A stretch of DNA of 64,000 bases from contig NZ_CP012332.1 of the NCBI RefSeq assembly GCF_001263175.1, forward strand, positions 62,001-126,000, read 5' to 3'. Positions 1 through 31,487 of the stretch are shown here, in pieces (position 1 is the stretch's first letter; each line of letters opens with the position of its first letter). This DNA comes from Vulgatibacter incomptus. GTDB lineage: Bacteria; Myxococcota; Myxococcia; Myxococcales; Vulgatibacteraceae. The notes under the pieces are model-generated. The model did not search any database, had not been told where the DNA came from, and saw only the letters and a list, made by a program, of their open reading frames with translations. Position numbers and translations under genes: made by a program.

Positions 1-2
1 TC

Positions 3-3000
3 TGCACCGTTGGTGATGTCTGCAACGAGGTCGGCGAGTGCGTCGGCAAGCTCCCCAACGACTGCGGCCTCGAGGCCACCGACTGCAGCGAGGTCTCCTG
101 CGACGAGCTGAGCGCGAGCTGCTCCCTGGTTCCCTTCGCCGATGGCACGAGCTGCGAATCTGGCGACCTCTGCGAGATCGCGGCCTGCCAGGCCGGCGAA
201 TGCGTGGTCACGCCGAAGGACTGCTCCGCGATGGGCTCGGCTTGCACGGCCGGCATCTGCGATCCGGTCGACGGCTCCTGCGGCGCCGAGCCTCTGGACA
301 TGGGTACGTCCTGTGACCTCGCCGGGCTCGGTCAGTGCGAGGTGGCGGCCTGCGACGGCGCCGGCTCCTGTCTCGCCGAGCCCCTCGACGCGGGCACGTC
401 GTGTTCGCTCGCCGGCCTTGGCCAGTGCCAGTTCGCCGCCTGCGACGGCGCCGGTGCCTGCGAGGCAGAGGCACGCCCCGCCGGGACTGCGTGCTCGCTC
501 GGCGGCCTCGGGCAGTGCCAGACCGCCGCCTGCGATTCGGCCGGCGCGTGTGCGGCACAGAACGTGTCCGACGGGACCGCTTGCAACGACGGCGACCGGT
601 GCACCTTCGCGGATGCCTGCATGGCCGGCTCCTGCGCAGGCACGTACGACGGTCCTGCCTGCATGGCAGCTGCGACTCTCTACCTCGAGGGCTTCGAGGA
701 CTGCGCCAGCTCCGGCTGGACTCTCGCTGGCGAGTGGGAGTGCGGGACGCCGACCTCGGGTCCGAATCAGGCCCGCACCGGCACCGGCGTCGTCGCGACG
801 AAGCTCGCGGGCACCTACGGAAACAACGCCAGCTTCGCGACGTCCACGGCGACCTCTCCGGTCATCGATCTGAGCGGTGCCTCGAGCCCCGTCCTCGCCT
901 TCTGGGTATGGATGCATACCGAGGGCAACTCGCCCTACGACGGATTCAACGTGAAGGTCCGCCGTGCAGGCGAGACCGGATTCACGCTGGCGGACGACGT
1001 CTCGCCGTCCTACCGCGGGGTGATCGACTCGCAGCCCGCCTGGGTCGGCTACGACCGGAACTTTGGCTGGCGGCGGTTCGCCGTAAATCTGAGCGCCTTC
1101 GCCGGCGACTCGATCGAGGTGCAGTTCGGCTTCCGAAGCGATGGCAGCGGGGCCTACGACGGGGTCTTCATCGACGATCTCTCGGTCGCCGAAGACGTCG
1201 CGGATTCCGTCGCGATCCTTCCGAATGGCCTCCCCCGTGCAACCGTCGGCCATTCCTTTGCGGCGAACCTCAACCGGGCCGGCGGATCGAACGCCGTCTC
1301 CTGGAGCATCGTCGGCGGCGCGAACCACGACTGGATCGCTATCGACTCCTCGACGGGCGTGCTCTCCGGCGTGCCTTCGGTCTCGAACGTGGGTCCCGTC
1401 TCCGTCACCGTCCGCGTCGAGGACGGCATCCTGTCGCTGAACTCTGCCGAGGCGACCCTGACCACCTCGGTCGAGGATCCGGGAGCGCTCCTCCTCTACC
1501 GCAGCGATCTCGAGGGTGATTGCTCGAGCTGGACGCTCGGCGGCGACTGGGAGTGCGGGACGCCCACGAAGGTTGGGCCCCCGGGGGCCCTTTCGGGCGA
1601 GACCTGCCTCGCGACCCGCCTGTCCTCGGATTACAGCTCCAGCCAGAACTACGACACGGCCACCGCGACCTCGCCTTTGATCGACCTGACCCAAGCGAGC
1701 CATCCGCTGCTCCGCTTCTGGGCCTGGGTCAGGACCGAATCGTCGGGAACCTCGTACTACGACGCGTTCAACGTCAAGGTGAGCACCAACGGAACCTCCT
1801 TCAGCCTCCTCACGGCAGTCGACCCTCCCTACACTGGCACGGTCAACAGCGAGCAGGCATGGTCGGGCGACCTCGTCGCCTTCGGCTGGAGGGAGTACCA
1901 GGCCGATCTCAGCGAGTACGCAGGCCAGAGCGTGAGCCTGCGTTTCGCCTTCCGGAGCGACTCGAGCGGCAATCTCGAGGGCGTCTACATCGATGACATC
2001 TCCATCGTCGAGGCGGCGGCCAATCCTGTCTCGATCGCCACTCCCGTGCTCCCTGACGGCACCAGCGGCCGACGGTACCTCGCCAGCATGAGGAAGATCG
2101 GCGGCTCGAACGAGTCGAGCTGGAGCATCGTCGGCGGTTCGAACCACGAATGGCTCTCGATCGACGCCGCGACCGGCGCCCTCTCGGGAACCCCGGCCAC
2201 GTCGAACGAAGGCCCGGTCCACCTTCAGGTTCGGGTCGAGGAGCCTCTCAACCCGTCGAACTTCGCGGTGGCCGAGTACGACTTCGAGGTCCGGGCCCCC
2301 ATTCCCGGCGTCTACCTCGACGAATCCTTCGTGAACTGCGCCGCCTGGACCATGAGCAGCGATTGGCAGTGCGGGGAGCCAAGCAACGTAGGGCCGGCCG
2401 CGTGCCACTCGCCGGGCGGTTGCATCGCAACGAACATGTCCGGGGACTATACGAACAACATGGCCTGGGCCTCCGCCATCGCCACGTCGCCGGTGATCGA
2501 CCTCACCGACGCGACGGATCCGAAGTTCACCTTCTGGGCCTGGATCCGAACCGAGTCGGGCAACGACGCGTTCAACGTGAAAATCAGCCGGAACGGCGGC
2601 CCGTTCACGGTCCCGACCTCGGCGCAGGTCTCGCCCGCGTATTACACGAGCCTCATCGCGAGCGAGAACGGCTGGTCCGGCGACCTCTCCAGCTGGCGGC
2701 CGTACGCCATCGACATCTCCTCGTACACGGGTTCCACGATCCAGGTTCGGCTCGCGTTCAGGAGCGACGGCAGCCTCGTCTATCCCGGCGTCTACGTCGA
2801 CGACCTGTCGGTGACGGAACGGTATAGGGATCCGCTCTCGATCACGACGTCTCCGAACCTCGGCAGGACCTTCGTCGATCAGCCGTTCGTCGCCGTGCTG
2901 GCCCGAACCGGAGGTTCCCGTGAGGCGACCTGGTCGCTCGTCGACGCTCCGGCGTGGATGGAGATCAATCCGGCGACGGGCGTCGTCTCCGGAACGCCCA

Positions 3001-6000
3001 CGGCGAGCGAAATCGGGCCGCACACGTTCACGGCGCGCGTCGAGGAGCCGCAGTTCCCGGAGAACTTCGCCGAGGTGGAGTTCCAGGTGGTGGTCGCCGA
3101 GCTCGGGGCCGGGCAGTATGCCGACACCGATTTCGACGCGAGCCCCAGCGGCTGGACGCTCCGCGGTGAGTGGGAGTGGGGCACGCCGTCCAGCGTCGGA
3201 CCGTCGAGCTGCCATTCGGGCAGCGGCTGCATCGCGACTCGGATCGCCAGCAACTACGGCAACGACGCCGCGTACGACACGTCGACCGCGGACTCCCCGC
3301 CCATCGTCCTCGCGGGAGCCACCGAGCCGATGGTGGTCTCGTTCTGGGCCTGGAGCCACACCGAGGCGGGCTACGACGGCTTCAACCTGAAGGTCAGCAA
3401 CGACGGCGGTGTCACCTACGTGCCGGTGACGGACGTGAGCCCGGTGTACGACGGGACGGTCGATTCCCAGCAGGCGTGGAGCGGCAACAAGTCCGCGAGC
3501 GGCTGGCAGAAGATCAGGGCACGGCTCCCTGCCTCGTACACGGGAGAGACGATTCGACTCCGCTTCGCGTTCCGCTCCGACGGCAGCTCGAACTACGCGG
3601 GCGTCTACATCGACGACGTCATGGTCCAGCAGGAGTCGACCGATCCCCTCGAGATCGTCACGACCCGCCTCAACAACGGCCTCCCCGGTATCCCCTGGAT
3701 GGGGAGGCTCGCGAAGAGCGGCGGATCGACGGCCTCGACCTGGAGCCTCGTGAGCGGTCCCTCGTGGATGCAGATCGACCCGCAGACCGGCCTGCTCTCG
3801 GGGACTCCGCCTGCCCTGGCCACCCATTCCGTGACGGTCCGGGTCTCCGAGCCGGCCACACCCGCCAACTTCGCGGAAGCGACGTTCTCGCTCGACATCC
3901 TCTCGCCGCCGACCGAACCCTACTACGAGGCGGATTTCACCTCCGACGGCGGGTGGACGGTGGCCGGCGAGTGGCAGCGTGGGGTCCCCACGAGCGGGCC
4001 CGGCGCCTGCCGCTCGGGCGGGGAATGCCTCGCCACGCGGCTCGCTGGAAACTACGGCAACGACGCGACCTGGGCGGGTTCGATCGCAACCTCGCCGACG
4101 ATCGATCTCTCACAAACGGTGGAGCCGCTCGTCACGTTCTGGGCCTGGGTCAAGACCGAGGGGCCGAACTGGGACGCGTTCAACCTGAAGATCAGCCGCG
4201 ACGGCGGGCCGTTCGAGCTGCCCGCTGCCGCCCAGGTGTCGCCGGGCTACACCGGGTCCCCCGACGGGCAGCTCGGGTGGGGCGGCGATCTGACCCCGTG
4301 GCGCCGTTACGTGGTCGACATCTCGGCCTACGCCGGATCGACGATCCAGCTCCGTTTCGCGTTCCGCAGCGACGGCGGCGGAACCGACGCGGGCGTGTAC
4401 ATCGACGACCTCGCGATCTCGACGGCCGGGATGAACCCGCTGTCGATCGAGGGCAACCTTCCCGCGGTCGTGTCCGTCGGGATGCCGCTCGTCGCCACCT
4501 TCGAGCGTGACGGCGGATCCTCGGCAGCACAGTGGACGTTCACTCCGCTTCAGAACGCCTCCTGGCTCACCTTCGATCCCATCCGCCAGGCGATCTCCGG
4601 CACACCGACCGCCGCCGACGTTGGCCCCGTCTCGTTCATGCTCCGCCTGGAGGAGCCGGCGTTCCCATCGAACTTCGCCGAAGAGTCCTTCGAGTTCGAG
4701 GTCGTGTCCCTCCCGCCGGGCGTTGCGTTCAGCGATGACTTCGAGGGCCCCGCAAGTTGGACGCTCCGAGGGGACTGGGAGCTCGGCACCCCGAGCAACG
4801 TCGGGCCTGCATCCTGCCACTCGGGTTCGACCTGCCTCGCCACGAAGCTCTCGCAGAACGCCTCCCCGAGCATGTCGATCACCGGTAACTACGTCGAATC
4901 GCCGCCGATGATGGTTCCCGCGGGGGCTCCCTCGAAGCTCGCCTTCTGGGCGTGGATCGAGACCTCCAACGCTCGGTTGAATTGGTTCCAGGCTCAGATC
5001 CTGGGAGATTCCTACGAAGTCCCGGCTGCCGCCGCGGTCTCGCCGGCCTACGTGAACTCGTCGAACAGCGGCGCCTGGGGCGGTGATCTGAGCCAGCTCG
5101 GATGGCGAAAGTACTCGATCGATCTGTCGGCCTACGCAGGTCAGACGATCCGGGTGGCGTTCATCTTGAGCACCTCGAGCGGTTACATCGGCGCAGGCGC
5201 CTACGTCGACGACGTGACAATCGAGTGGGCGGATCAGGTCGGGCCGTCCATCGTCGAGGACATGCTCGCGAGCGCCTACGTGGGCGTGCCGTACACCCAG
5301 CGGATGTTCCGCACCGTGGGGCCGGCGGCCGTCACCTGGAGCATCGCCGGGGGCGTGAACCACACGTGGCTCACGATCGATCCGACGACCGGCGTGCTCA
5401 CGGGGACCCCGGGCCTTGGCGACATCGGCCCGGTCTCGGTGGTTGTGCGGGCGGAGGATCCCAACGATCCGGACGCGGCCGACGAGAGGGAGCTCGTCTT
5501 CGAGGTGAGCGGAGCGGAGGTCTACTTCGCCACCGGCTTCGAGGGCGCCTGCCCCAACGACTGGGTGCTGACGGGCGACTGGGAGTGCGGCACGCCGAGC
5601 TCGGTGGGCCCCGCGACTGCGTTCGGAGGCAACCAGTGCATTGCCACGAAGATCGCGGGCAACTACTCCAACGACCGCACCTACGCGGGCTCGAACGCGA
5701 CGTCCCCGGACATCGACCTGACGAGCGCCATTTCGCCCGTCCTCTGGTTCCGGATGTGGACGTACACCGAGGGCAGCACCTACGACGGCGCCAACGTGAA
5801 GGTGTCGGCGAGCGGTGGAACCTTCGCTCTGCTGGCCGACCCGGACCCCGCTTATGTGTTCACCATCAAGAGCGAGCGCGCCTGGGGTGGCGAGCACAGC
5901 GGGTCGGGTTGGCGGCTCGTCCGGGTCGACCTGTCGGACTACGTTGGAGAGGTGGTGCGGCTCCAGTTCGGGAACGCCAGCGACGGCTCGGGCGTGTACC

Positions 6001-6044
6001 CCGGCGTCTACATCGATGACCTGGTGGTCGTCGAGGCCGACTGA
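3..6044 (+). CDS. Giant cysteine-rich MAM/He_PIG repeat protein, copy 1 (5' truncated by window edge)
   Basis: The frame is open from the first bases, so start, signal peptide and Gly linker lie outside the window; 2013 residues are visible. Codons before the first internal ATG/GTG match the Cys-rich stalk of the next copy, which shows that the gene really begins upstream. Order seen: EGF/disintegrin-like Cys motifs, three 30-residue repeats of type GTSC..LAGLGQC..AACD.AG.C, then seven jelly-roll units (each with a GW-L-GEW-x-CGTP opening, a DGFNVKV core and a GVYIDDL end) separated by six Ig-like units with the He_PIG signature (WLSIDP.TG.LSGTP..GP). Units 4 to 6 have lost the Cys of CGTP. 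The protein ends directly after the last YIDDLVVVEAD, with no sorting tag. By comparison with its neighbours it is probably an outer-surface lipoprotein for adhesion or substrate binding; no catalytic motif is visible. Function is inferred from domains only. Confidence 0.85.
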   Translation, partial: CTVGDVCNEVGECVGKLPNDCGLEATDCSEVSCDELSASCSLVPFADGTSCESGDLCEIAACQAGECVVTPKDCSAMGSACTAGICDPVDGSCGAEPLDMGTSCDLAGLGQCEVAACDGAGSCLAEPLDAGTSCSLAGLGQCQFAACDGAGACEAEARPAGTACSLGGLGQCQTAACDSAGACAAQNVSDGTACNDGDRCTFADACMAGSCAGTYDGPACMAAATLYLEGFEDCASSGWTLAGEWECGTPTSGPNQARTGTGVVATKLAGTYGNNASFATSTATSPVIDLSGASSPVLAFWVWMHTEGNSPYDGFNVKVRRAGETGFTLADDVSPSYRGVIDSQPAWVGYDRNFGWRRFAVNLSAFAGDSIEVQFGFRSDGSGAYDGVFIDDLSVAEDVADSVAILPNGLPRATVGHSFAANLNRAGGSNAVSWSIVGGANHDWIAIDSSTGVLSGVPSVSNVGPVSVTVRVEDGILSLNSAEATLTTSVEDPGALLLYRSDLEGDCSSWTLGGDWECGTPTKVGPPGALSGETCLATRLSSDYSSSQNYDTATATSPLIDLTQASHPLLRFWAWVRTESSGTSYYDAFNVKVSTNGTSFSLLTAVDPPYTGTVNSEQAWSGDLVAFGWREYQADLSEYAGQSVSLRFAFRSDSSGNLEGVYIDDISIVEAAANPVSIATPVLPDGTSGRRYLASMRKIGGSNESSWSIVGGSNHEWLSIDAATGALSGTPATSNEGPVHLQVRVEEPLNPSNFAVAEYDFEVRAPIPGVYLDESFVNCAAWTMSSDWQCGEPSNVGPAACHSPGGCIATNMSGDYTNNMAWASAIATSPVIDLTDATDPKFTFWAWIRTESGNDAFNVKISRNGGPFTVPTSAQVSPAYYTSLIASENGWSGDLSSWRPYAIDISSYTGSTIQVRLAFRSDGSLVYPGVYVDDLSVTERYRDPLSITTSPNLGRTFVDQPFVAVLARTGGSREATWSLVDAPAWMEINPATGVVSGTPTASEIGPHTFTARVEEPQFPENFAEVEFQVVVAELGAGQYADTDFDASPSGWTLRGEWEWGTPSSVGPSSCHSGSGCIATRIASNYGNDAAYDTSTADSPPIVLAGATEPMVVSFWAWSHTEAGYDGFNLKVSNDGGVTYVPVTDVSPVYDGTVDSQQAWSGNKSASGWQKIRARLPASYTGETIRLRFAFRSDGSSNYAGVYIDDVMVQQESTDPLEIVTTRLNNGLPGIPWMGRLAKSGGSTASTWSLVSGPSWMQIDPQTGLLSGTPPALATHSVTVRVSEPATPANFAEATFSLDILSPPTEPYYEADFTSDGGWTVAGEWQRGVPTSGPGACRSGGECLATRLAGNYGNDATWAGSIATSPTIDLSQTVEPLVTFWAWVKTEGPNWDAFNLKISRDGGPFELPAAAQVSPGYTGSPDGQLGWGGDLTPWRRYVVDISAYAGSTIQLRFAFRSDGGGTDAGVYIDDLAISTAGMNPLSIEGNLPAVVSVGMPLVATFERDGGSSAAQWTFTPLQNASWLTFDPIRQAISGTPTAADVGPVSFMLRLEEPAFPSNFAEESFEFEVVSLPPGVAFSDDFEGPASWTLRGDWELGTPSNVGPASCHSGSTCLATKLSQNASPSMSITGNYVESPPMMVPAGAPSKLAFWAWIETSNARLNWFQAQILGDSYEVPAAAAVSPAYVNSSNSGAWGGDLSQLGWRKYSIDLSAYAGQTIRVAFILSTSSGYIGAGAYVDDVTIEWADQVGPSIVEDMLASAYVGVPYTQRMFRTVGPAAVTWSIAGGVNHTWLTIDPTTGVLTGTPGLGDIGPVSVVVRAEDPNDPDAADERELVFEVSGAEVYFATGFEGACPNDWVLTGDWECGTPSSVGPATAFGGNQCIATKIAGNYSNDRTYAGSNATSPDIDLTSAISPVLWFRMWTYTEGSTYDGANVKVSASGGTFALLADPDPAYVFTIKSERAWGGEHSGSGWRLVRVDLSDYVGEVVRLQFGNASDGSGVYPGVYIDDLVVVEAD

Positions 6045-6130
6045 GGTCGTCGCTTGAGCGCGGGGTGCGCTAGAGGGAATCGGTCCGGATGCGGTTGGGG
6101 CTGATTCCTTCCCGCGCCCCGCGGTAGGGA

Positions 6131-6365: not shown

Positions 6366-6406
6366 CAAACGTTTGGGCTTGCAGTGGGATGCAATCCATC
6401 TATCGT
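6366..6406 (+). promoter_or_regulatory. Promoter with palindromic operator candidate, copy 2
   Basis: CAAACGTTTG (6366-6375) is a perfect 10-bp palindrome. It is followed by TTGCAG (6379-6384), a 16-nt spacer and TATCGT (6401-6406). The same order and spacing recur before copies 3 and 4, which is the main support. The start codon lies about 60 nt past the -10 box. Confidence 0.5.
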
Positions 6407-6426
6407 CCGTGACCATCCGTATGAAT

Positions 6427-6467: not shown

Positions 6468-9400
6468 ATGCGTGGGTTGTTGGCGGTCCTATCGTTGCAC
6501 CCGGTCCGATCGTGGACGCTGGCGAGCTTGCTGGCGTTTTCGGTCGCTGCCTGTGGCGGTGACGTTGGATCCGAAGAAGGCAAGGGCGGTAGCGGCGGCG
6601 GGGGAACCGGCGGCGTTTCCGAGGGCGGCACCGGCGGCACGGCCGGCGAAGGCACTGGCGGCACGGGTGGCAAGCCCGCCGAAGGCACCGGCGGCACTGG
6701 CGGTAATGCCGGCGAGGGCACCGGCGGCACGGGTGGCAATGCCGGCGAGGGCACCGGCGGCACCGGCGGCGACGCGGGCGAGGGCGGCACCGGCGGCACC
6801 GGCGGCGGCGATCCGACGCAGTGCGCCGAGGACGCGGATTGTGCCGGGCTCGCGGTAGAACAGTGCGTTGTCGCGGTCTGCAACGACGGCAGGTACGAAG
6901 GTCCGATCGACTCCTGCGTCCTGGTCCAGGCAGAGGTCGGCGCGGCCTGTGACGACGGCCTCTTCTGCACCGTTGGCGACGCCTGCAACTTGGTCGGCGA
7001 GTGCGTCGGCAAGACTCCCAACGATTGCGGTCTCGAGGCCACCGACTGCAGCGACGTCTCCTGCGACGAGCTGACCGCGACCTGCTCCATGGTCCCCGTT
7101 GCCGACGGCACGAGCTGCGAGGGCGGCGACGTTTGTGAGATCGCGGCCTGCCAGGCCGGCGAATGCGTGGTCGCGCCGAAGGACTGCTCCGCGATGGGCT
7201 CGTCCTGCTCGGCCGGCACCTGCGATCCCGTCGATGGCTCGTGTGTCGCCGAGCCTTTCGACATGGGTACCTCCTGTACGCTCGCCGGGATCGGTCAGTG
7301 CGAGGTCGCTGCCTGTGACGGCGTCGGCGCCTGTGTGGCCGAGCCTCTCGGCGCGGGCACCTCCTGTACGCTGGCTGGGCTCGGGCAGTGCGAAGTGGCG
7401 GCCTGCAATGGCGCCGGCTCGTGCGCCGCGGAGAACCGTCCCGCCGGGACCGCGTGCTCGATCGCGGGCCTCGGGCAGTGCCAGACCGCCTCCTGCGATT
7501 CGGCGGGCGCGTGCGCGCCGCAGAACCTGGCAGACGGGACCGCTTGCAACGACGGCAACAGGTGCACCGTGGCGGACGCCTGTGTCTCCGGCTCCTGCTC
7601 GGGAACCTACGACGGGCCGGCTTGCCTGGCGGCTGCGACCTATCTCACCGAGGGTTTCGAGAACTGCGTCGCCTCCGGCTGGACCTTCGCGGGCGAATGG
7701 CAGTGCGGTACGCCGACCTCGGGGCCGAACGCGGCCCGCACTGGCACGGGTGCCTTCGCGACGAAGCTCGCGGGCGAGTACGGCAACAATGCGACCTTTG
7801 CGACCTCCACCGCCACCTCGGCGCCCATCGACCTCGGCAACGCGTCGAGCCCCGTCCTGTCGTTCTGGGCCTGGGTCAACTCCGAAGGCTCTTCGACGCT
7901 CTACGACGGATTCAACCTCAAGGTCCGCCGCTCGGGTGAGACCAACTTCACGCTGGCTACCGCCGTGACGCCCGCCTACAGGGCCTCGATCGGTACGCCC
8001 TCCGAGCTGGCCTGGGGCGGTCTGTTCGCATCGCTCGGATGGCAGCTGTACACCGTGGACCTGAGCCAGTACGCGGGGGATACGATCGAGCTTCGTTTCG
8101 GCTTCCGCAGCGACGGCAGCACCACCTACGAGGGGATCTACATCGACGACATCTCGATCGCGGAGGTCGATGCGCTTCCGCTCTCCTTGATCGACCGGGC
8201 TCTCCCCCTCGCCTACGTGGGTCACAGCTTCAGCACGCAGCCCAGCCGGCGTGGCGGCGGCCCCAACGTCTCCTGGACCATCGTCGATGGCGTGAACCAC
8301 GGCTGGCTGAGCATCGATCCCGCCACCGGCATGCTGTCGGGAACGCCGACGTCGGCCGACTCGGGTCCCGTCTCCATCACGGTCCGCGTCACGTCCTCGG
8401 AGCTCCTGGCCAACTTCGCGGAGAGGACCTATTCCACCCGGGTGGACGATCTCGGCTCGAACCTCCTCTACTTCAACGATCTCGAAGGGGACTGCTCGAA
8501 CTGGACGCTCGGTGGGGACTGGCAGTGCGGAACGCCCTCGATTGTCGGGCCCTCCGCCGCATTCTCCGGTTCAAACCTTCTGGCGACCCGCCTGAACGCG
8601 AACTACAACAACGATCAGACGTTCGCGACGACCAAGGCGACTTCGCCGGCCATCGACCTCACCCAGGCGAGCCATCCAAGGCTGAGGTTCTGGGCGTGGA
8701 TGAAGACCGAGTCGTGCTGCGACGGATTCAACGTCAAGGCGAGCACCGACGGCACCACCCTCGTGCCGCTGACGAACACCAATCCTGAGTTCACCGCGAC
8801 GATCGACAGCCAGGATGCGTGGTCGGGAGACAGCTCGGGCTGGAGGATGTACGAGGCGGATCTCGGAGCCTTCGCTGGCGAGACCGTCTTCCTGACCTTC
8901 GCCTTCCGGAGCGACACCAGCATCGTCGACGCGGGCATCTACATCGACGACATCGCGATCTACGAGTCCGCAATCAATCCTCTCTCGATCGTCGCAACCG
9001 GTTTGGCCGACGCTCGCCTCGGTTCCTCCTACCTGGCTCGGCTCGCCAGGCGCGGTGGCTCGAATGGCGCGGTGTGGAGCATCGTCAGCGGCACGAACCA
9101 TGGCTGGCTCTCGATCGATCCCGTCACCGGCGCCCTTTCCGGCACGCCGGCTGCCTCCAACTCGGGACCGGTCCAGATCAGGGTCCGGCTCGAGGAGACG
9201 TTGGTTCCCTCGAACTTCGCAGTGGCCGATTTCGACTTCGCGGTCGTCGAGCCCCGTCCCTTCGGTATCCTCTTCGCCGACGACTTCTCGAACTGCTCCG
9301 CAGGATGGACTCTCAACTCGGATTGGCAGTGCGGCACTCCGAGCGCCGTTGGGCCGGCCACCTGCCATTCGGAGCCCGGCTGCCTCGCCACCAACCTCAC

Positions 9401-13055: not shown

Positions 13056-13067
13056 TCCGTTAGGACA

Positions 13068-13096: not shown

Positions 13097-13106
13097 GCGA
13101 CCACAT

Positions 13107-13148
13107 GAACGCCGCTCTCGGAGCTCCCGAGGGCGGCGTTCATTTTTT
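13107..13148 (+). terminator. Intrinsic terminator after copy 2
   Basis: GAACGCCGCTCTCGG pairs with CCGAGGGCGGCGTTC (one G-T pair) and is followed by ATTTTTT. This is a classical rho-independent terminator, and shows that each giant gene is its own transcription unit. Confidence 0.85.
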
Positions 13149-16400: not shown

Positions 16401-19400
16401 TGCCGCCAGACCCGAGCTCGGGACCGGTCGAGCTCCGGGTCCGCGTGCAGGAGCCGACGCTCCCTTCGAACTCCGCCGAGGGAGACTTCAGCTTCGCGAT
16501 CATCGGCGTGCCTCGGGATCCCAACCTCCATTTCGCGGAGGACTTCTCCAACTGTCTCGCCGGGTGGACCTTCAATCCCGACTGGCAGTGTGGAACCCCG
16601 ACCACGGTGGGGCCGTCTGCCTGTCATTCGGCGCCGGGTTGCATCGGCACGAACCTCTCCGGCAACTACCGTGACAACCTCCCCTGGGGGTCGACCGTCG
16701 CCGACTCCCCCGTGATCGATCTCACCGACGCGGACGATCCGATCCTCTCCTTCTGGGCTTGGGTCAGGACAGAGGCGAGCTACGACGCCTTCAACGTGAA
16801 GGTCAGCACGAACGGTGGTGCCACCTGGAGCCTGCTGACGGGCGTGAACCGAGCCTACGACGGAACCGTCGCCGGCGAGCTGAGCTGGGGAGGCGATCGC
16901 ACCGCTCAGGGCTGGGAGCTCTACAAGGTGGACCTGGGCGCGTATGCCGGCCAGACCATCCGGCTCCGGTTTGCGTTCAGGAGCGACGGCAGCGGCAACT
17001 ACGCGGGCGTCTACATCGACGACCTCGCCATCGGCGAGAAGTCCAACGAGCCCGTGAGCATCGTCACGGCGAATACCCTGCCTGACGCCTTCGTCGACAG
17101 AGCGTGGACGACGGCCCTGGTCAAGGGCGGCGGCTCCTCCCAGGCGGCTTGGACCCTGGTCTCCGGACCCGACTGGCTGCAGCTCGACGCCGCCACCGGC
17201 CGGCTCAGCGGCATGCCGGGCCCTGGCGACGTGGGGACGATGAACCTGACCGTCCAGGTCGCCGAGCCCCGGAACCCGACCAACTCGGCCACCAAGGACT
17301 TCACTTTTGAGGTGTTCGAGATCGAGCCCGGACAGATCTGGACGTCGACCTTCGATCGCTGCTCGGCGAACTGGAGCATGGGTGGGGAATGGCAGTGCGG
17401 GACGCCCTCGAGCGTCGGCCCGTCGAGCTGCCGCACCGGTTCCAACTGCCTGGCAACGCGTCTTGCGAGCAACTACAACGACGATGCTTCCTTTACGACC
17501 TCAATCGCAACGTCGTCGCTCATCGATCTGAGTGAGGCTTCGAGCCCCATCTTGACCTTCTGGGCGTGGGTCGACACGGAAGGTTCGACGTCGTCGTCGA
17601 CGTTCTGGGACGGCTTCAACATCAAGATCCGCCGTACGGGAGAAACGACCTTCACCCTGGCCACCGAGGTGGCGCCCCCCTACCGTGGGACGCCCTCGGG
17701 AGCCTCCGAGTTGGCCTGGGGTGGCTACTACGCGACCCTTGGTTGGAAGCAGTACTCCGTCGATTTGAGCGGGTACGAGGGAGGTTCGATCCAGGTGCAG
17801 TTCGGCTTCCGATCCGATGGCGGCACCACCGCAGCCGGCGTGTACATCGACGATGTCGTGATCACCAACGGCGCATACGTGCCGCTCTCGATCAACGCCG
17901 CCAACCTCCCGATGGGCGGATCGGGCTTGCCCTACCAAGCGTCGTTCACCAAGACCGGTGGCACCGCGGCTGCGGTCTGGAGCATGGCCCCGGGCCAGAA
18001 CGCCTCGTGGCTGATCTTCGACCCGGCCACCCAGCGGATCTCCGGGACCCCGTCGGTCTCCGATGTGGGTACCGTGAGTTTCACGCTGCGCGTGGAGGAG
18101 CCGAGCCGCCCGTCGAACTTCGACGAGAAGACGTTCGAGTTCGAGGTGGTCGAGGTCTCCGCCGAACCCAGCTTCGTGGAGAGCTTCGACGATGGAGCGG
18201 ACGGCTGGACCTTGACGGGCGATTGGGAGCACGGAAGCCCGACCAACGTGGGCCCCGCCGCCTGCCACTCGGGCTCTGGCTGCATCGCGACCAAGATCGA
18301 TGCCAACTACAACAAGACCTCCTCCCTCACTTTCTCGGCGAACTACGCCGAGTCCCCGCCCGTCCTCGTTCCGCGTGGGCCCCCGTCCACGCTCACGTTC
18401 TGGGCTTGGGTCAGCACCCACAGCGGGCGATGGGACAGCTTCCAGGTGCAGGTCCGCAGGGCTTCCGAATCGAGCTTCAGCGTTCCGACCGCCGCCGACG
18501 TGGATCCTCCGTACACCGGGTGGGCCATCGCCTCCTCCTTGTCGTGGGGCGGCGAGCTCGACCAGCTCGGATGGCGCCGATACTCGGTCAACCTCGCAGC
18601 CTATGCGGGCGAGCCGATCGTGGTCCGCTTCGCGTTCAACGTGGGCACGACCAGCAACCACTCGGATCCCGGCGTCTACATCGACGACGTGCAGATCCAG
18701 CACAAGGTTTTCGTCGCGCCCTCGATCACGCCGGTCATCGTCTCCGATGCCTGGGCGAACGTGGCCTACACGCAGCGGCTGGAGAAGACCGGAGGCGCGG
18801 CGGGCGCGAGGTGGAGCATCGAGGGCGGCTGGAACCACGCCTGGCTCGCCATCGATCCGATCACCGGCACCCTCACGGGCGTCCCGGGCATCGGGAATAT
18901 CGGACCCGTGAGCGTCGTGGTGAGGTCGGAGGATCCCAACGATCCCGACCTCGCGGACGAGCTCGACGTGCAGTTCGAAGTGAGCGGCGCGCAGGTCTAC
19001 TACAGTCAGGATTTCGAGGGTGCCTGCGCCAGCAACGGCTGGACTCTCCTGGGCGACTGGCGGTGCGGCACGCCGACGACCGTCGGCCCTCGCGCTGCGC
19101 ACGGCGGCACCCAGTGCATCGCCACCAACCTCTCGGGTGACTATTCCAACAACCAGAGCTACGCCGGAAACAGCGCGACGTCGCCGATCATCAACCTCTC
19201 CGGCGCGTCTCACCCTGTCGCCTGGTTCCGCATGTGGCTCTTCACGGAGGGAAGCACGTTCGACGGCGCCAACCTCCAGGTCAGCACCAACGGTGGCACG
19301 AGCTACCAGGTCGTCACGACGACCTCTCCTTCGCCCAGGTTCACGATCAGCAGCCAGTTGGCGTGGGGCGGCGAACACTCGGGAGCCGGGTGGACCCTGG

Positions 19401-19525
19401 TTCGAGCCGACCTCACCGCCTTCGCGGGGCAGCAGGTCAAGCTGCGGGTCGGCCTCGCGACGGACGGCTCGGTGGTGTTCCCCGGCGTCTACATCGACGA
19501 TCTCGTCGTCGTAGAAGCCGACTGA
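13430..19525 (+). CDS. Giant lipoprotein with six Cys repeats and six MAM/He_PIG units, copy 3
   Basis: 2031 residues. The ATG at 13430 follows GGAGG by 9 nt and begins a lipoprotein signal with FAAC and Cys29; the longer open frame upstream is promoter DNA. Order: signal; long GTGG/GDGTGGT linker with near-identical units; Cys-rich region; six 30-residue Cys repeats (twice as many as copies 1 and 2); six jelly-roll units with five He_PIG Ig units between them. Relative to copy 2 it lacks one jelly-roll plus Ig pair (unit 4 with its following Ig); its fourth unit and next Ig match unit 5 and Ig 5 of copy 2. Very similar to copy 4 over most of its length, including long identical DNA stretches in the last two units. 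Predicted exposed outer-membrane lipoprotein; ligand unknown. Confidence 0.9.
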   Translation: MRALVSVVSLQSIRVWALAIVLALSFAACGGDGPSNNGGSGGGVTGGTGGPSGTGGSGGLSGTGGDGTGGTAGDGTGGTAGDGTGGTAGDGTGGTGGNATGGTGGDATGGTGGGDPRLCHDDADCAELAVGQCVVAACNNDGRFEGPLDTCVLVHAEVGTACDDGLFCTLGDACNEVGECVGKLPNDCGLAATECGDVACDELSASCSLIPIADGTSCEAGSLCEIAACEAGECVAMPKDCSGMGSACAVAACDPVDGACIAEPLDSGRSCTVAGMGPCEVAACDGAGACVAAPLSTGTSCTLAGIGQCEVAACNATGACVAQPLTAGTSCTLAGIGQCEAAACNATGACVAQPLAAGTSCTLAGLGQCQASACNNAGACVAEPLAVGTSCAIAGLGQCQVASCDSAGACAAQARPAGTACTIAGLGQCKSSACDAAGSCAASNLPNGIACNDGNRCTVGDACSAGSCLGTYDSPICQATAVYLVEGFEDCAASGWTFAGEWQCGRPTSGPGRAHSGTGAFATKLAGNYANNATFSGSIATSPSIDLSGTDRPLLTFWAWVDTEGDTTSSLFWDGFNVKVRRSDESSFALATVVTPPYRGIISGGGEQAWGGYYSSLGWQRYSVDLSAYAGDTVQVRFAFRSDSSTTAAGVYVDDLTISEPYAIPLSIAGGSLPAVVYSGHSTVSLPLGWFGDGTTSSVTWSIADGVNHGWLAIDPVTGLLTGTPTSADVGPVSLTVRVSDNDLPAKYAERTFTTTVEDLGSNVLYYSDFESDCSSWTLGGEWQCGIPSNVGPSAPVSGERLLATKLTSNYSNDQSYATNVATSRPIDLTQAVHPKLRFWGWYKTESCCDGFNVKVSTNGTTYTQLTSVEPAYTNFIDGQNAWSGDSSGWKQFTLDLRAYAGQTVRLQFSFRSDGSSVDAGAYIDDLMIIEGALDPISLVATGLPDAHFGSRYVSGFARRGGSRQAVWSIVSGTNHEWLSIDPVTGNISGMPPDPSSGPVELRVRVQEPTLPSNSAEGDFSFAIIGVPRDPNLHFAEDFSNCLAGWTFNPDWQCGTPTTVGPSACHSAPGCIGTNLSGNYRDNLPWGSTVADSPVIDLTDADDPILSFWAWVRTEASYDAFNVKVSTNGGATWSLLTGVNRAYDGTVAGELSWGGDRTAQGWELYKVDLGAYAGQTIRLRFAFRSDGSGNYAGVYIDDLAIGEKSNEPVSIVTANTLPDAFVDRAWTTALVKGGGSSQAAWTLVSGPDWLQLDAATGRLSGMPGPGDVGTMNLTVQVAEPRNPTNSATKDFTFEVFEIEPGQIWTSTFDRCSANWSMGGEWQCGTPSSVGPSSCRTGSNCLATRLASNYNDDASFTTSIATSSLIDLSEASSPILTFWAWVDTEGSTSSSTFWDGFNIKIRRTGETTFTLATEVAPPYRGTPSGASELAWGGYYATLGWKQYSVDLSGYEGGSIQVQFGFRSDGGTTAAGVYIDDVVITNGAYVPLSINAANLPMGGSGLPYQASFTKTGGTAAAVWSMAPGQNASWLIFDPATQRISGTPSVSDVGTVSFTLRVEEPSRPSNFDEKTFEFEVVEVSAEPSFVESFDDGADGWTLTGDWEHGSPTNVGPAACHSGSGCIATKIDANYNKTSSLTFSANYAESPPVLVPRGPPSTLTFWAWVSTHSGRWDSFQVQVRRASESSFSVPTAADVDPPYTGWAIASSLSWGGELDQLGWRRYSVNLAAYAGEPIVVRFAFNVGTTSNHSDPGVYIDDVQIQHKVFVAPSITPVIVSDAWANVAYTQRLEKTGGAAGARWSIEGGWNHAWLAIDPITGTLTGVPGIGNIGPVSVVVRSEDPNDPDLADELDVQFEVSGAQVYYSQDFEGACASNGWTLLGDWRCGTPTTVGPRAAHGGTQCIATNLSGDYSNNQSYAGNSATSPIINLSGASHPVAWFRMWLFTEGSTFDGANLQVSTNGGTSYQVVTTTSPSPRFTISSQLAWGGEHSGAGWTLVRADLTAFAGQQVKLRVGLATDGSVVFPGVYIDDLVVVEAD

Positions 19526-19566: not shown

Positions 19567-19579
19567 GCACCGACACGCG

Positions 19580-19617
19580 CGCCGCCCTCGGATCTCCCGA
19601 GGGCGGCGTTCGTGTTT
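19580..19617 (+). terminator. Terminator after copy 3
   Basis: CGCCGCCCTCGG pairs with CCGAGGGCGGCG (stem ends 19608), followed by TTCGTGTTT. It is the counterpart of the T-tailed terminator after copy 2, with a weaker T-run. Confidence 0.65.
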
Positions 19618-19905
19618 CTCGGGCAAGAAGTCCGAGACAAGAGGAAACCCTGACGCATCCGTTCCGAGTGCGACTGTGCAGGTGGGATGCAATCAATTGG
19701 TAGCGTAGTCATAATGTTTCACGACGTAGGGTTTTTCCGATGCGGTCTCTTAACGCCTCGTGATTACTTGGTAAAATTCGGGCTCTCGCTTTCGCGTGGA
19801 TCGTCGATCAAACGTTTTGACTTGCAGGTGGATGAAACCCGTCTATCCTCGTCGGCCATTGGCATGTATTCCGGCTTCGAGCCGGCTGGCTGGAGGGCTT
19901 CGCCC
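19618..19905 (+). promoter_or_regulatory. Promoter region of copy 4
   Basis: Carries CATAATGTT (19710-19718), the palindrome TCAAACGTTTTGA (19808-19820), -35 TTGCAG (19822-19827), 16-nt spacer, -10 TATCCT (19844-19849), the CCGGCT-TCG-AGCCGG hairpin (19871-19885) and GGAGG (19892-19896). From the palindrome to the start codon it is almost identical to the region before copy 3. Confidence 0.55.
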
Positions 19906-22900
19906 ATGCGAGCGTTGGTGTCGGTCGTTTCGTTGCAATCCATTCGACTCTGGGTGCTGGCGATCGCGCTGGCGTTCGCGTTTGCCGCCTGTGGCAGTGA
20001 AGGCTCATCGAGCCCCGGCGGAAGCGGCGGCGGGGTGACCGGAGGCAGTGGTGGCCCCAGCGGCACCGGCGGCACCGGCGGCCCCAGCGGCACCGGTGGA
20101 ACCGGCGGCCCGAGTGGCACTGGCGGCAGCGCTGGCGATGGTACCGGCGGCACCGCAGGCGATGGCACCGGCGGAACCGCCGGCGATGGCACGGGCGGCA
20201 CCGGCGGTGATGCCACGGGCGGCACCGGCGGCGATGCCACGGGCGGCAGCGGCGGCGGTGGTCCGTTGCTGTGCGACGACGACGCCGACTGCGCCGAGCT
20301 CGCGGTCGGGCAGTGCGTCGTGGCGGCCTGCAACAACGACGGAAGGTTCGAGGGGCCGCTCAATACCTGCGTTCTGGTCCGGGCGGAGGTCGGCACCGCC
20401 TGCGATGACGGCCTCTTCTGCACCCTGGACGACGTCTGCAACGAGGTCGGCGAGTGCGTCGGAAAGCTCCCCAACGATTGCGGCCTCGCGGCCACCGAAT
20501 GCGGCGACGTCGCCTGCGACGAGCTGAGCGCGAGTTGCTCGCTGGTCCCCGTCGCCGACGGCACGGGGTGCGAGGCGGGCAGCCTCTGCGAGATCGCGGC
20601 CTGCGAGGCGGGCGAATGCGTCGCCATTCCGAAGGACTGCTCCGGGATGGGCTCGGCCTGTGCGGTGGCCGCCTGCGATCCGGTCGACGGCGCCTGCATC
20701 GCCGAGCCTCTCGACCTGGGCACGTCCTGTACGCTCGCTGGAGTCGGGCAGTGCGAGGTGGCGGCCTGCAACGCCACCGGCGCCTGCGTCGCCCAGCCTC
20801 TCACCGCGGGCACGTCCTGTACGCTCGCCGGAATTGGACAGTGTGAGGCGGCGTCCTGCAACGCCACCGGTGCCTGTGTCGCCCAGCCTCTCGCTGCGGG
20901 CACGTCCTGCACCCTCGCCGGGCTCGGGCAGTGCCAGGTGGCTTCGTGCAACAGCGCCGGCGCCTGCGCCGCGGAGCCTCGGCCCGTTGGAACCGCGTGC
21001 ACGATCGCGGGCCTCGGTCAGTGCCAGAGCGCCTCTTGCAATACGGCCGGCTCGTGCGCGGCCTCGACCGTCCCCAACGGGACCACTTGCAACGACGGTG
21101 ATCGATGCACGATCGGGGACGCGTGCGTCGCCGGCGCTTGCGCGGGAACCTTCGACGGGCCTGTCTGCCTGGCGGCTTCGACCTACCTCGCCGAGGGATT
21201 CGAGGACTGCGCCGCCTCCGGCTGGACCTTCGCTGGCGAGTGGCAGTGTGGAGCGCCGACCTCGGGTCCGGGTAGGGCCCGCACCGGCAGTGGCGCCTTC
21301 GCGACGAAGCTCGCCGGGAACTACGCCGACAACGCCTCGTTCGCGACCTCCATCGCCACCTCGCCGGCCATCGACCTCAGCGGTTCGACGAACCCCGTCC
21401 TCACCTTCTGGGCGTGGGTCGACACCGAAGGCTCGACCTCGTCTTCGACGTTCTGGGACGGGTTCAACGTGAAGGTGCGCCGCGCGGGAGAATCGACCTT
21501 CACACTGGTCACCGCGGTGACGCCTCCCTACCGTGGAACGGCCTCGGGGACCACCGAGCAGGCCTGGGGCGGCTACAACGCGAGCCTCGGGTGGCAGCCC
21601 TACACGGTCAATCTGAGCGCGTACGCAGGTGGCTCGATCCAGGTGCAGTTTGCGTTCCGCTCGGACAGCAGCACCAACGCGGCCGGCGTCTACGTCGACG
21701 ATCTGACGATCACCGAGCCCTTCGCCGTTCCGCTCGCGATCTCTGGCCGGGAATTGCCTTCGGTGGTGTACGCGGGCTATTCGACGGCCCTGCAGCTCGT
21801 TCGCACCGGAGGTGGGACCTCCTCCGTTACGTGGAGCATCGCCGGCGGCGTGAACAACGGCTGGCTCTCGATCGATCCGGTCACGGGGCTGCTCTCCGGG
21901 ACGGCTTCCTCAGCCGACGCCGGTCCCGTGTCCGTCACCGTCCGCGTGACGTCCGATGATTTCCCTGCCAACTTCGCGCAGAGGACCTTCACCACGACGG
22001 TGGAGGATCTCGGCTCGAACCTCCTCTACTTCACCGACTTCGAGACGGATTGCTCGACCTGGACCCTCGGGGGAGACTGGCAGTGTGGGAAACCGTCGAA
22101 CGTCGGGCCCGCCGCGGTGTCCGGCGACAGGCTCCTGGCGACCAGGCTGGACTCGAACTACAACAACAACCAGGCCTTCGGGACGGCCACGGCGACCTCG
22201 CCGGCGATCAACTTGACGCAGGCGAGCCATCCGAGGCTTCGGTTCTCGGGATGGTACAAGACGGAGTCGGGCTTCGACGGCTTCAACGTCAAGATCAGCA
22301 CCGACGGGACCAACTACACGCAGCTGACCAACGTCGAGCCGGCGTACACGTCCACCGTCAACAGCCAGGCTGCGTGGTCGGGAGACTCGCTGGGTTGGAA
22401 GGAATTCAAGGCCGATCTCAGCGCCTATGTGGGCCAGAGCATCAGGTTGCGCTTCGACTTCCGGAGCGACGGCAGCAACGTCGATGCCGGCGTCTACATC
22501 GACGACATCATAATCACCGAGGCGGCGCTTGATCCCGTTTCGATCGTCGCGAGCGGCTTGCCCGACGCCCACTTCGGCTCCCGCTACGTGGCCGGTTTCA
22601 CCAGGCGTGGTGGCTCGCGGCTCCCGGCGTGGAGCATCGTCAGCGGCACGAACCACGGGTGGCTCACGATGGATCCGATCACCGGAACCATCACGGGCCT
22701 GCCGCCGGACCCGAGCTCGGGACCGGTCCAGCTCCGGGTCCGCGTGCAGGAGCCGCTGCTCCCCTCGAATTTCGCAGAGGCAGACTTCAGCTTCGCGATC
22801 GTCGGTCCGCGGGACCCCGGCGTCCACTTCGCCGAGGACTTCTCCAACTGTTCTGCGGGCTGGACCTTCAATTCCGACTGGCAGTGCGGCACCCCGAGCG

Positions 22901-25794
22901 TCGTCGGTCCGTCCGCTTGCCATTCGGAGCCGGGTTGCATCGGCACAAACCTCACCGGCAACTACCGTGACAACCTCGCCTGGGCGACGACCGTCGCCGA
23001 CTCCCCGGTGATCGATCTGATCGACGCGGACGACCCTACCCTCTCGTTCTGGGCATGGGTCCATACGCAGTCGACCACGACGGACGCCTTCAACGTGAAA
23101 GTCAGCACGAACGGTGGTTCCACCTGGAGCCTGCTGACGGGCGTTAGCCGAGCCTACGACGGAACCGCTGGAGGCGAGCAGGCCTGGGGCGGGGATCGCA
23201 GCGCTCAGGGCTGGGAACGCTACAAGGTGGACCTCGGCGCCTACGCCGGCCAGACCATCCGGCTCCGGTTCGCGTTCCGCAGTGACGGCAGCACCAATCG
23301 CGCCGGCGTCTATATCGACGACCTCGTCATCGGCGAGAAGTTCAACGACCCAGTGAGCATCACCTCGGCCAGCGTCCTCCCCGACGCCTTCGTCGGAAAC
23401 CCGTGGTCGACGAGGCTCCTCAAGACGGGCTCCTCTCGGGGGACCTGGACCATCGTCTCCGGGCCGGCATGGCTGCAGATCGACGCCGCCACCGGCCGGC
23501 TCATCGGCACGCCCGGCCCAGGCGACCTGGGGACCGCAAACGTGACCGTGCACGTCGCCGAGCCCCTGAACCCGACCAACGGCGCCACCAAGGACTTCAC
23601 CTTCGAGGTGGTCGAGATCGAAGCCGGACAGGTGTGGGCGTCGAGCTTCGACCGCTGCTCGGCGAACTGGGTCCTGACCGGGGAATGGCAGTGCGGAACC
23701 CCGACCAGCGTAGGCCCGTCGAGCTGCCGCACCGGCAGCAACTGCATGGCCACTCGGCTCGCGAGCGACTACGTCAACGACGTTGCCTTCGCGGCCTCGA
23801 CCGCCACATCTCCGGCGATCGACCTCTCTGCATCGAGTGGCGCGAAGCTCACCTTCTGGACCTGGATCAGCACGGAAGAATGCTGTGATGGCTTCAACCT
23901 CAGGGTCAGCACGGATGGCGGCGCGACCTACGCACTCCACAACGCCGTGACGCCTGCCTACAACACGACCATCGACTCGCAGACTGCCTGGACCGGCAAC
24001 CGCTCCGCCCAGGGCTGGCAGATGTTCTCTGCCGACCTCGCGGCCTTCGACGGCCAGAGGATCCGGTTGCGGTTCAGCTTCCGTTCCGACGGAAGCGGCG
24101 TTGGGCCCGGGATCTACATCGACGATCTCGTGATCACCGACGGTCTCTATGTGCCCCTCTCGATCAACACGACTCCCCTCTCGCAGGGCCGCGTGGACGT
24201 GCCCTACCAGGCGTCCTTCACCAAGACCGGTGGCACCTCCCAGGCGGTCTGGAGCATGACCCCGGGCCAGAACGCATCGTGGCTGAGCTTCGACTCCGCC
24301 ACGAAGCGGATCTCCGGAACCCCGTCGGCCTCCGATCTGGGCGTCGTGAGCTTCACCCTGCGTGTGGAGGAGCCGGGCAATCCGTCGAACTTCCGCGAGA
24401 GGACGTTCCAGTTCGAGGTGGTGCAGCTCCCCGAAGGGTTCAGCTACGCCGAGGGTTTCGAAGTGGGCTCCGGGGGGTGGACCTTGAGGGGTGATTGGGA
24501 GCACGGGACCCCGAGCAACGTGGGCCCGGCCGAGTGTCACTCGGGCTCCCGGTGCCTCGCTACGAAGATCGCCGGCAACTACACGAAGGACTCCAGCCTC
24601 ACCTTCGCGACGAACTACGCGGAGTCCCCGCCCCTCGTCGTCGCATCTGGGGCTCCGTCCACGCTCGTCTTCTGGGCCTGGGTCAGCACCCACAGCGGGC
24701 GATGGGACAGCTTCCAGGTGCAGGTCCGCAGGGCCTCTGAATCGAGCTTCACCGTCCCGGCGGCCGCCAACGTGTCCCCGCCGTATTCCGGGTCCTCTGC
24801 CACTACGTCGTCGTGGGGTGGCGAGCTCGACCAGCTCGGCTGGCGCCGGTACGCGGTCAACCTCTCGGCCTATGCAGGCGACACGATCGTGATCCGCATC
24901 GCGTACAACATCGGGATTACCTCCGCCCACTCGGATCCGGGCGTCTACGTCGACGACGTGCAGATCCTGGAGACGAGTCGCGTCGCTCCTTCGATCTCCC
25001 CGGTGAAGGTCTCCGACGCCTGGGTGAACGTGCCCTACACGCAGCGGCTGGAGAAGACCGGAGGCGCGGCGGGTGCGGGTTGGAGCATCGTTGGCGGCTG
25101 GAACCACGCCTGGCTCGCCATCGATCCGGTCACCGGCACCCTCACGGGCCTCCCGGGCTTCGGCGACATCGGACCCGTGAGCGTCGTGGTGCGGGCGCAG
25201 GATCCCAACGACCTCGACCTCGCGGACGAGCTCGACGTGCAGTTCGAGGTGAGCGGGGCGCAGGTCTACTACAACCAGGACTTCGAGGGGCCATGCGCCA
25301 GCAACGGCTGGACCCTCATGAACGACTGGCGGTGCGGCACGCCGACGACCGTCGGCCCTCGCGCTGCGCACGGCGGCACCCAGTGCCTCGCCACCAACCT
25401 CTCGGGCGATTACTCCAACAACCAGACCTACGCCGGCAACAGCGCGACGTCGCCGACCATCAATCTCACCGGCGCGTTGCACCCGGTCGCCTGGTTCCGC
25501 ATGTGGATCTTCACCGAGGGAACCACGTTCGACGGAGCCAACCTCCAGGTCAGCACCAACGGTGGCACGAGCTACCAGGTCGTCACGACGACCTCTCCCT
25601 CGCCCAGGTTCACCGTCAGCAGCCAGTTGTCGTGGGGCGGCGATCAGTCTGGAGCCGGGTGGATCCTCGTCCGAGCCGACCTCACCGCCTTCGCTGGCCA
25701 GCAGGTCAAGCTGCGGATCGGCCTCGCGACGGACAGCTCGGTGGTGTTCCCCGGCGTCTACATCGACGACATCGTCGTAGTCGAAGCCGACTGA
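19906..25794 (+). CDS. Giant lipoprotein with four Cys repeats and six MAM/He_PIG units, copy 4
   Basis: 1962 residues. The ATG at 19906 has GGAGG 9 nt upstream and starts a lipoprotein signal (FAAC, Cys29). Order: signal; GTGG linker with PSGTGGTGG units; Cys-rich region; four 30-residue Cys repeats; six jelly-roll units alternating with five He_PIG Ig units. Its fourth jelly-roll unit differs sharply in its second half from that of copy 3 (CCDGFNLRVSTDGG rather than the FWDGFNIKIRR form) although the flanking modules agree, which suggests module exchange. It ends with YIDDIVVVEAD. It is the last gene of the array and faces purF. Predicted surface lipoprotein; no enzymatic motif seen. Confidence 0.9.
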   Translation: MRALVSVVSLQSIRLWVLAIALAFAFAACGSEGSSSPGGSGGGVTGGSGGPSGTGGTGGPSGTGGTGGPSGTGGSAGDGTGGTAGDGTGGTAGDGTGGTGGDATGGTGGDATGGSGGGGPLLCDDDADCAELAVGQCVVAACNNDGRFEGPLNTCVLVRAEVGTACDDGLFCTLDDVCNEVGECVGKLPNDCGLAATECGDVACDELSASCSLVPVADGTGCEAGSLCEIAACEAGECVAIPKDCSGMGSACAVAACDPVDGACIAEPLDLGTSCTLAGVGQCEVAACNATGACVAQPLTAGTSCTLAGIGQCEAASCNATGACVAQPLAAGTSCTLAGLGQCQVASCNSAGACAAEPRPVGTACTIAGLGQCQSASCNTAGSCAASTVPNGTTCNDGDRCTIGDACVAGACAGTFDGPVCLAASTYLAEGFEDCAASGWTFAGEWQCGAPTSGPGRARTGSGAFATKLAGNYADNASFATSIATSPAIDLSGSTNPVLTFWAWVDTEGSTSSSTFWDGFNVKVRRAGESTFTLVTAVTPPYRGTASGTTEQAWGGYNASLGWQPYTVNLSAYAGGSIQVQFAFRSDSSTNAAGVYVDDLTITEPFAVPLAISGRELPSVVYAGYSTALQLVRTGGGTSSVTWSIAGGVNNGWLSIDPVTGLLSGTASSADAGPVSVTVRVTSDDFPANFAQRTFTTTVEDLGSNLLYFTDFETDCSTWTLGGDWQCGKPSNVGPAAVSGDRLLATRLDSNYNNNQAFGTATATSPAINLTQASHPRLRFSGWYKTESGFDGFNVKISTDGTNYTQLTNVEPAYTSTVNSQAAWSGDSLGWKEFKADLSAYVGQSIRLRFDFRSDGSNVDAGVYIDDIIITEAALDPVSIVASGLPDAHFGSRYVAGFTRRGGSRLPAWSIVSGTNHGWLTMDPITGTITGLPPDPSSGPVQLRVRVQEPLLPSNFAEADFSFAIVGPRDPGVHFAEDFSNCSAGWTFNSDWQCGTPSVVGPSACHSEPGCIGTNLTGNYRDNLAWATTVADSPVIDLIDADDPTLSFWAWVHTQSTTTDAFNVKVSTNGGSTWSLLTGVSRAYDGTAGGEQAWGGDRSAQGWERYKVDLGAYAGQTIRLRFAFRSDGSTNRAGVYIDDLVIGEKFNDPVSITSASVLPDAFVGNPWSTRLLKTGSSRGTWTIVSGPAWLQIDAATGRLIGTPGPGDLGTANVTVHVAEPLNPTNGATKDFTFEVVEIEAGQVWASSFDRCSANWVLTGEWQCGTPTSVGPSSCRTGSNCMATRLASDYVNDVAFAASTATSPAIDLSASSGAKLTFWTWISTEECCDGFNLRVSTDGGATYALHNAVTPAYNTTIDSQTAWTGNRSAQGWQMFSADLAAFDGQRIRLRFSFRSDGSGVGPGIYIDDLVITDGLYVPLSINTTPLSQGRVDVPYQASFTKTGGTSQAVWSMTPGQNASWLSFDSATKRISGTPSASDLGVVSFTLRVEEPGNPSNFRERTFQFEVVQLPEGFSYAEGFEVGSGGWTLRGDWEHGTPSNVGPAECHSGSRCLATKIAGNYTKDSSLTFATNYAESPPLVVASGAPSTLVFWAWVSTHSGRWDSFQVQVRRASESSFTVPAAANVSPPYSGSSATTSSWGGELDQLGWRRYAVNLSAYAGDTIVIRIAYNIGITSAHSDPGVYVDDVQILETSRVAPSISPVKVSDAWVNVPYTQRLEKTGGAAGAGWSIVGGWNHAWLAIDPVTGTLTGLPGFGDIGPVSVVVRAQDPNDLDLADELDVQFEVSGAQVYYNQDFEGPCASNGWTLMNDWRCGTPTTVGPRAAHGGTQCLATNLSGDYSNNQTYAGNSATSPTINLTGALHPVAWFRMWIFTEGTTFDGANLQVSTNGGTSYQVVTTTSPSPRFTVSSQLSWGGDQSGAGWILVRADLTAFAGQQVKLRIGLATDSSVVFPGVYIDDIVVVEAD

Positions 25795-31485: not shown

Positions 31486-31487
31486 CG

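Follow-up and report, generated by a model that had tools for sequence, protein, structure and literature searches.

A tandem array of giant MAM/Ig-like lipoprotein genes at the purL-purF locus of Vulgatibacter incomptus: anatomy, duplication history and a proposed binding role

How did the soil myxobacterium Vulgatibacter incomptus come to carry a row of giant lipoprotein genes, and what might their products do at the cell envelope? The DNA analyzed here (the window) was a stretch of 64,000 nucleotides, C1:62001-126000, of a complete genome consisting of a single contig (C1) of 4.35 Mb. A previous sequence-only reading had described four genes in a row of about 5.9-6.6 kb, encoding proteins of about 2000 residues with a common domain order. 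Four long plus-strand ORFs (g1-g4) with this order were confirmed, and g2, g3 and g4 measured 6.6, 6.1 and 5.9 kb from their probable ATGs (Table 1); each of these ATGs directly precedes the lipoprotein signal, has a GGAGG ribosome-binding site upstream and is later than the mechanical ORF start.

Extent of the array and anatomy of its proteins

The array did not begin at the first base of the window, where the earlier description had placed it. A whole-genome search found seven intact clustered paralogues (A-G) within C1:30-88 kb, of which g1-g4 were the last four, and one dispersed paralogue (H), giving eight intact genes of up to ~2200 residues. The bases upstream of the window, proposed as the place to look for more copies, contained B, C and the minus-strand paralogue A (C1:30-36 kb); the row extended upstream to at least C1:42 kb. 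Paralogues B-G sat between purL and purF, which are convergent in this genome, and A was separated from them by purL. The purL and purF genes of the sister genus also converged, and the 2.8-kb gap between them held a different linker-type lipoprotein gene. Beside paralogue B, on its upstream side, lay a partial duplicate of purL made of two joined pieces (93% and 88% DNA identity), which may be left over from the duplication with which the expansion started. Paralogue H contained an additional, unrelated C-terminal domain of ~130 aa, for which Pfam gave nothing above the cut-off.

On the other side of purF, the window contained a gene whose Ceramidase_alk-like product matched the Pfam family with 46.5 bits in its N-terminal part only; of the seven other genomes compared, six had a homologue next to purF. 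This gene was followed by a row of NADH-quinone oxidoreductase genes (nuoF, J, L, M and N were identified) and a pair encoding a sigma-54 NtrC-type response regulator and a histidine kinase. Long antisense ORFs were dismissed as a high-GC artefact.

Table 1. Positions of the array genes, their parts and neighboring or related loci
Feature	Window position	Genome or locus position	Strand	Remarks
Paralogue A		C1:30.1-35.7 kb	-	beyond purL from rest of array
purL		C1:37026-39284	+	left border of array, outside window
Partial purL duplicate		C1:40656-41239
Paralogue B		C1:42.1-48.6 kb
Decayed copies		C1:51454-54338 (L014 about 10455-13340)		between B and C
Paralogue C		C1:54.7-61.2 kb
Paralogues D-G (g1-g4)		C1:61.5-87.8 kb
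g1 (D)	3-6044		+	5' end cut by window edge; ATG at C1:61514, 487 nt upstream
g1 Cys stalk, remainder	3-671
g1 modules	672-6035			7 MAM + 6 Ig
Upstream element of g2	6378-6407		+	30 nt, putative promoter, CTTGCAGNNGGNTGNANNCNNTCTATYNTC
g2 (E)	6468-13055		+	2195 aa; lipobox Cys codon near 6552; GTGG-type linker
g2 Cys stalk	6822-7634			38 Cys
g2 modules	7635-13046			7 MAM + 6 Ig
Terminator-like stem-loop after g2	13105-13143		+	17 pairs, T-tract
Upstream element of g3	13345-13374		+
g3 (F)	13430-19525		+	2031 aa; lipobox Cys codon near 13514; linker
g3 Cys stalk	13784-14869			50 Cys; longest, extra 90-nt tandem units
g3 modules	14870-19516			6 MAM + 5 Ig
Replacement tract in g3 MAM4	17462-17809		+	approximate; identity drop vs g4
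Terminator-like stem-loop after g3	19579-19609		+	T-tract
Upstream element of g4	19821-19850		+
g4 (G)	19906-25794		+	1962 aa; lipobox Cys codon near 19990; linker
g4 Cys stalk	20272-21177			42 Cys
g4 modules	21178-25785			6 MAM + 5 Ig
MAM3-Ig3-MAM4 of g4	22819-24141		+	unit given to AlphaFold2
Counterpart tract in g4 MAM4	23758-24081		+	approximate
Stem-loop between g4 and purF	25899-25924			T-rich on both strands; possible shared terminator
purF	25957-27357	C1 88.0-89.3 kb	-	right border of array
Ceramidase_alk-like gene	27582-28982		+	adjoins purF
NADH-quinone oxidoreductase row	29633-37129		+
Response regulator and kinase	38590-41255		-
Paralogue H		C1:3848875-3852255 (L016:2876-6256)	-	3 MAM + 2 Ig
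Linker-type lipoprotein gene, sister genus		L080:10791-12194 (G001)		in purL/purF gap
EGF-type relative		L066:4357-6000 (G010)	-
Putative zinc-metalloproteases		L068:2169-5249; L069:1578-4487

The proteins of g1-g4 consisted of a signal peptide with a lipobox, a G/T-rich linker, a Cys stalk, and strictly alternating MAM and He_PIG (Ig-like) modules with MAM last. The linker DNA was composed of 9-33-nt repeats with a Gly/Thr-rich product, and the stalk of 90-nt units of ~30 residues with four Cys each; the number of Cys was even in every stalk examined. No Pfam match was found for the stalk, which could be described as a new domain. The module numbers in Table 1 were counted with a purpose-built profile, and Pfam gave 5-7 InhA-like_MAM and 3-6 He_PIG stretches per window protein. 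In all four proteins the proposed families scored far above their cut-offs: InhA-like_MAM (PF20773) with 188-238 bits against 26.9, He_PIG (PF05345) with 66-116 bits against 24, and also choice_anch_J (NF038128) with 139-165 bits against 30. Pfam and NCBIfam scans of the four proteins detected no M6 catalytic domain or any other peptidase family, and partial M36 matches covered the MAM part only, far below the cut-off.

The signal peptide and lipobox Cys were seen by inspection in g1-g4, as first read, with the lipobox FAAC or VAAC (for example MRALVSVVSLQSIRVWALAIVLALSFAAC in g3) and equivalents in A and C. These features support a prediction that the array proteins are lipid-anchored envelope lipoproteins. 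Type II secretion systems are able to carry lipoproteins to the cell surface, and a T2SS secretin gene was present in the genome; exposure of the proteins on the outer membrane (OM) would be consistent with both. In M. xanthus, Lys at position +2 of lipoproteins is linked to inner-membrane retention and Ala at +7 to the ECM type (PMC3222651). In g1-g4, position +2 was occupied by Gly or Asn and +7 by Ser or Thr, which, by sorting rules that come from another genus, would fit the OM rather than the inner membrane or matrix.

Upstream of C-G, five of the seven clustered genes, lay a conserved 30-nt element, which spanned from 85-90 nt to 55-60 nt before the ATG, contained hexamer-like TTGCAG and TCTAT(C/T) parts, and was more conserved than the remaining upstream region; A and B were without it. 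A genome-wide search returned exactly five matches, all upstream of array genes, and none for the reversed control. The paralogues are kin by descent, and conservation of the element alone is therefore no proof of function. Five genes with one genome-unique element nevertheless make common regulation likelier than separate control, and expression of the element-bearing genes may be common, which argues against the differential expression first suggested for the copies. Each gene had also been credited with its own promoter and terminator. For the promoter, the element before each of g1-g4 agreed with this, but a sigma-70 consensus scan found promoter-like sites no more frequent than in shuffles; for the terminator, stem-loops were present after g2, g3 and g4, but no stem-loop with a T-tract was found after g1.

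Predicted fold of the rod and stalk

The MAM3-Ig3-MAM4 unit of g4 was predicted by AlphaFold2 with a mean pLDDT of 92.7 and a pTM of 0.69, and the model was nearly all beta. It bore out the jelly-roll (MAM) and Ig assignment made from the letters. The best PDB fold matches of the model (Foldseek) were reelin repeats, followed by CBM22, meprin, InhA2 and the MAM-Ig part of receptor tyrosine phosphatases (PTP-mu), with the Bacteroides glycan-binding protein SGBP-B also among them. Whole-chain TM-scores were low, most likely because domain orientation differs. Against a viral fold library, the unit matched nothing beyond generic jelly-roll tail proteins. The AlphaFold2 model of the stalk had a mean pLDDT of 54; much of it was poor, and only the 30-residue repeats, modeled as paired short strands, were reliable.

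By both profile and predicted fold, the MAM jelly-roll resembled that of immune inhibitor A (M6) and meprin (PF20773, PF00629); unlike these, the array proteins had no peptidase domain and carried 6-7 tandem modules on a lipoprotein. Reelin, the top fold match, also presents jelly-roll subrepeats serially in a large extracellular rod, and weak Pfam Reelin_subrepeat-B matches were obtained in the window proteins. However, two subrepeats alternate around an EGF module in reelin, whereas MAM alternates with Ig in the array proteins, and close homology is not claimed.

Duplication, module exchange, decay and relatives

Adjacent genes were most similar to each other, with protein identities of 77% for F-G, 67% for E-F/G, 66% for C-D and 51-54% between A and the rest. 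In module trees, the first, second, penultimate and terminal modules grouped by position across paralogues and the middle modules were mixed; the grouping by position indicates that whole genes were duplicated. Between g3 and g4, the youngest pair, DNA identity fell from ~85% to ~55% over ~115 codons inside MAM4 and then recovered. Synonymous divergence was also raised in this tract, which favors replacement over selection. The g3 module grouped with MAM5 of g2 (UFBoot 99) and the g4 module with MAM5 of paralogue B (UFBoot 88) rather than with the g3/g2 module, all UFBoot values here being from one alignment and one fixed model; g4 is therefore the likelier recipient. No close donor for the tract was found in the genome.

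Decay was seen between B and C, where a 3' end was followed by a stalk fragment directly joined to an Ig-MAM fragment. The remnants represent at least two decayed copies. The Ig-MAM fragment had 86.6% DNA identity to paralogue C and was interrupted inside its last MAM module by an IS with IS3-like transposase ORFs.

Positive selection between paralogues was considered and rejected, dN/dS being below 1 in all pairs, a weak test because dS was near or above 0.6 for most pairs and partly saturated. No hypervariable loops were detected: the entropy difference of loops minus strands was 0.18 bits (p = 0.11), and the variation between modules was spread out.

A single-sequence scan of the genome collection matched no relatives. 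An alignment-based scan matched 46 loci, and the idea of a family restricted to Vulgatibacteraceae was dropped. Genes of ~640-960 codons with the order stalk-MAM-Ig-MAM were found in three species of Polyangium, Minicystis rosea (two loci), Byssovorax and several MAGs, and the sister-genus MAG ZC4RG40 contained one gene with 3 MAM and 2 Ig modules, its 5' end at a contig edge. The suggested comparison of copy number thus returned short forms, with one or two in most genomes, instead of the same array unchanged; the exception was a deltaproteobacterial MAG with matches on five contigs. The species was represented by a single genome and the sister genus by a single draft. No tandem arrays were seen in relatives within the flanks examined.

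The lipoproteins of Polyangia and ZC4RG40 resembled the array proteins in the lipobox, a short G/S-rich linker, a homologous Cys stalk and the MAM-Ig-MAM order, and the MAM-Ig-MAM part of Polyangia had 45-49% identity to them; they differed in the number of MAM modules, which was two in Polyangia and three in ZC4RG40 but six or seven in the array proteins. The array proteins in turn showed the architecture that defines the family, a homologous stalk and then MAM and Ig modules in alternation with MAM last. Their terminal MAM fell into a group with the ZC4RG40 terminal MAM (UFBoot 98) and, at a modest UFBoot of 64, with the one of Polyangia. In a related lipoprotein of another genome (G010), six EGF repeats stood where the Cys stalk would be, with one He_PIG and one MAM module behind them. 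A literature search found no paper on MAM with myxobacteria, He_PIG or InhA.

The Cys-rich repeat of the stalk (CDDGLxCTxxDxC...DCS) had homologues in MYXO-CTERM proteins of two other genomes (G052:C27 and G140:C1187), which resemble metalloproteases and have a C-terminal MYXO-CTERM anchor where the array proteins have an N-terminal lipid. Long runs of the array-type Cys-rich unit occurred in two putative zinc-metalloproteases with a MYXO-CTERM-like end (L068 and L069), and this repeat had no Pfam model. TraA likewise has Cys-rich repeats, together with a PA14-like domain and a C-terminal MYXO-CTERM, but neither of the latter was found in the array proteins: a Pfam scan of the four proteins, of limited sensitivity for distant PA14 homologues, gave no PA14-like domain, and the window proteins ended in VVVEAD without MYXO-CTERM, the TIGR03901 matches of the genome lying elsewhere.

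Proposed function of the array proteins

On balance, the array proteins are probably OM-anchored multivalent binding rods, either adhesins or substrate binders, that arose by lineage-specific expansion with birth-and-death evolution. Each protein would be exported by Sec and then lipidated at the lipobox Cys; the flexible G/T-rich linker and disulfide-rich stalk would hold the rod off the membrane, and its 11-13 alternating MAM (jelly-roll) and Ig-like modules would be presented outward to bind glycans, matrix or surfaces multivalently. The locus would have grown by tandem whole-gene duplication, mostly between the convergent purL and purF, after which copies would have diverged, lost or gained internal modules and swapped part of a module, with linkers and stalks changing length both ways via tandem repeats and some copies decaying. 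The surface repertoire for adhesion or binding that was first suggested kept its basis in this domain set, which is of the binding or adhesion type, and lost ground in its more specific forms of kin recognition and prey binding. MAM and Ig-like modules are also passive spacers or stabilizers in enzymes, so their presence does not prove binding, and the binding role and its ligand are proposed here from domain type and predicted fold.

Such passive modules might instead build a structural coat, a dense fibrous surface layer or spacer in which additional copies mainly raise dosage and the rods need no specific ligand. The upstream element common to five genes, the lack of significant enrichment of variation in loops and the dN/dS values would all suit a coat; however, with paralogues only 51-77% identical in protein, the divergence goes beyond the needs of dosage, and the nearest folds are often ligand-binding ones. 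We consider this explanation fairly unlikely.

The appearance of CBM22 and SGBP-B among the fold matches, and the InhA-like MAM domains known in secreted hydrolases, would agree with glycan-binding lipoproteins that capture substrate or prey polymers and so supply polymer degradation on the cell surface. Yet the identified neighbors were purL, purF, the ceramidase-like gene and nuo genes, and no polysaccharide-utilization genes were seen there, which leaves this role improbable. Prey binding, part of the original proposal, is further weakened by a review that places V. incomptus in neither of the classical nutrition types (PMC12397197). The soil metaproteome passages on Vulgatibacter that were consulted named only housekeeping and transport proteins (PMC5579227).

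It is conceivable, with a rather small probability, that gene duplication and exchange of module segments between neighbors serve as a recombining repertoire that generates new binding specificities without a TraA system, along the lines of the cassette systems that vary surface antigens. A TraA-like scheme, in which homotypic binding would let cells recognize kin or self and the diversity of paralogues would set specificity, would draw on the surface-type rods with a Cys-rich stalk, the paralogue divergence and the one exchanged module tract, but is very unlikely because the TraA-type domains were not found in the profile scans, traAB is reported absent from Vulgatibacter and its social traits lost (PMC6372800), and the spread-out module variation forms no hypervariable patch.

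The multivalent binding rods that we favor belong to an uncharacterized lipoprotein family that is spread over Myxococcota, usually short and mostly present in one or two genes per genome, compared with eight intact genes here. The series of 2, 3, 6 and 7 MAM modules, together with the purL/purF synteny, the decay and the exchange, shows how a giant array originated. If the rods bind different ligands, the locus would offer a tractable system for the diversification of bacterial surface repertoires.
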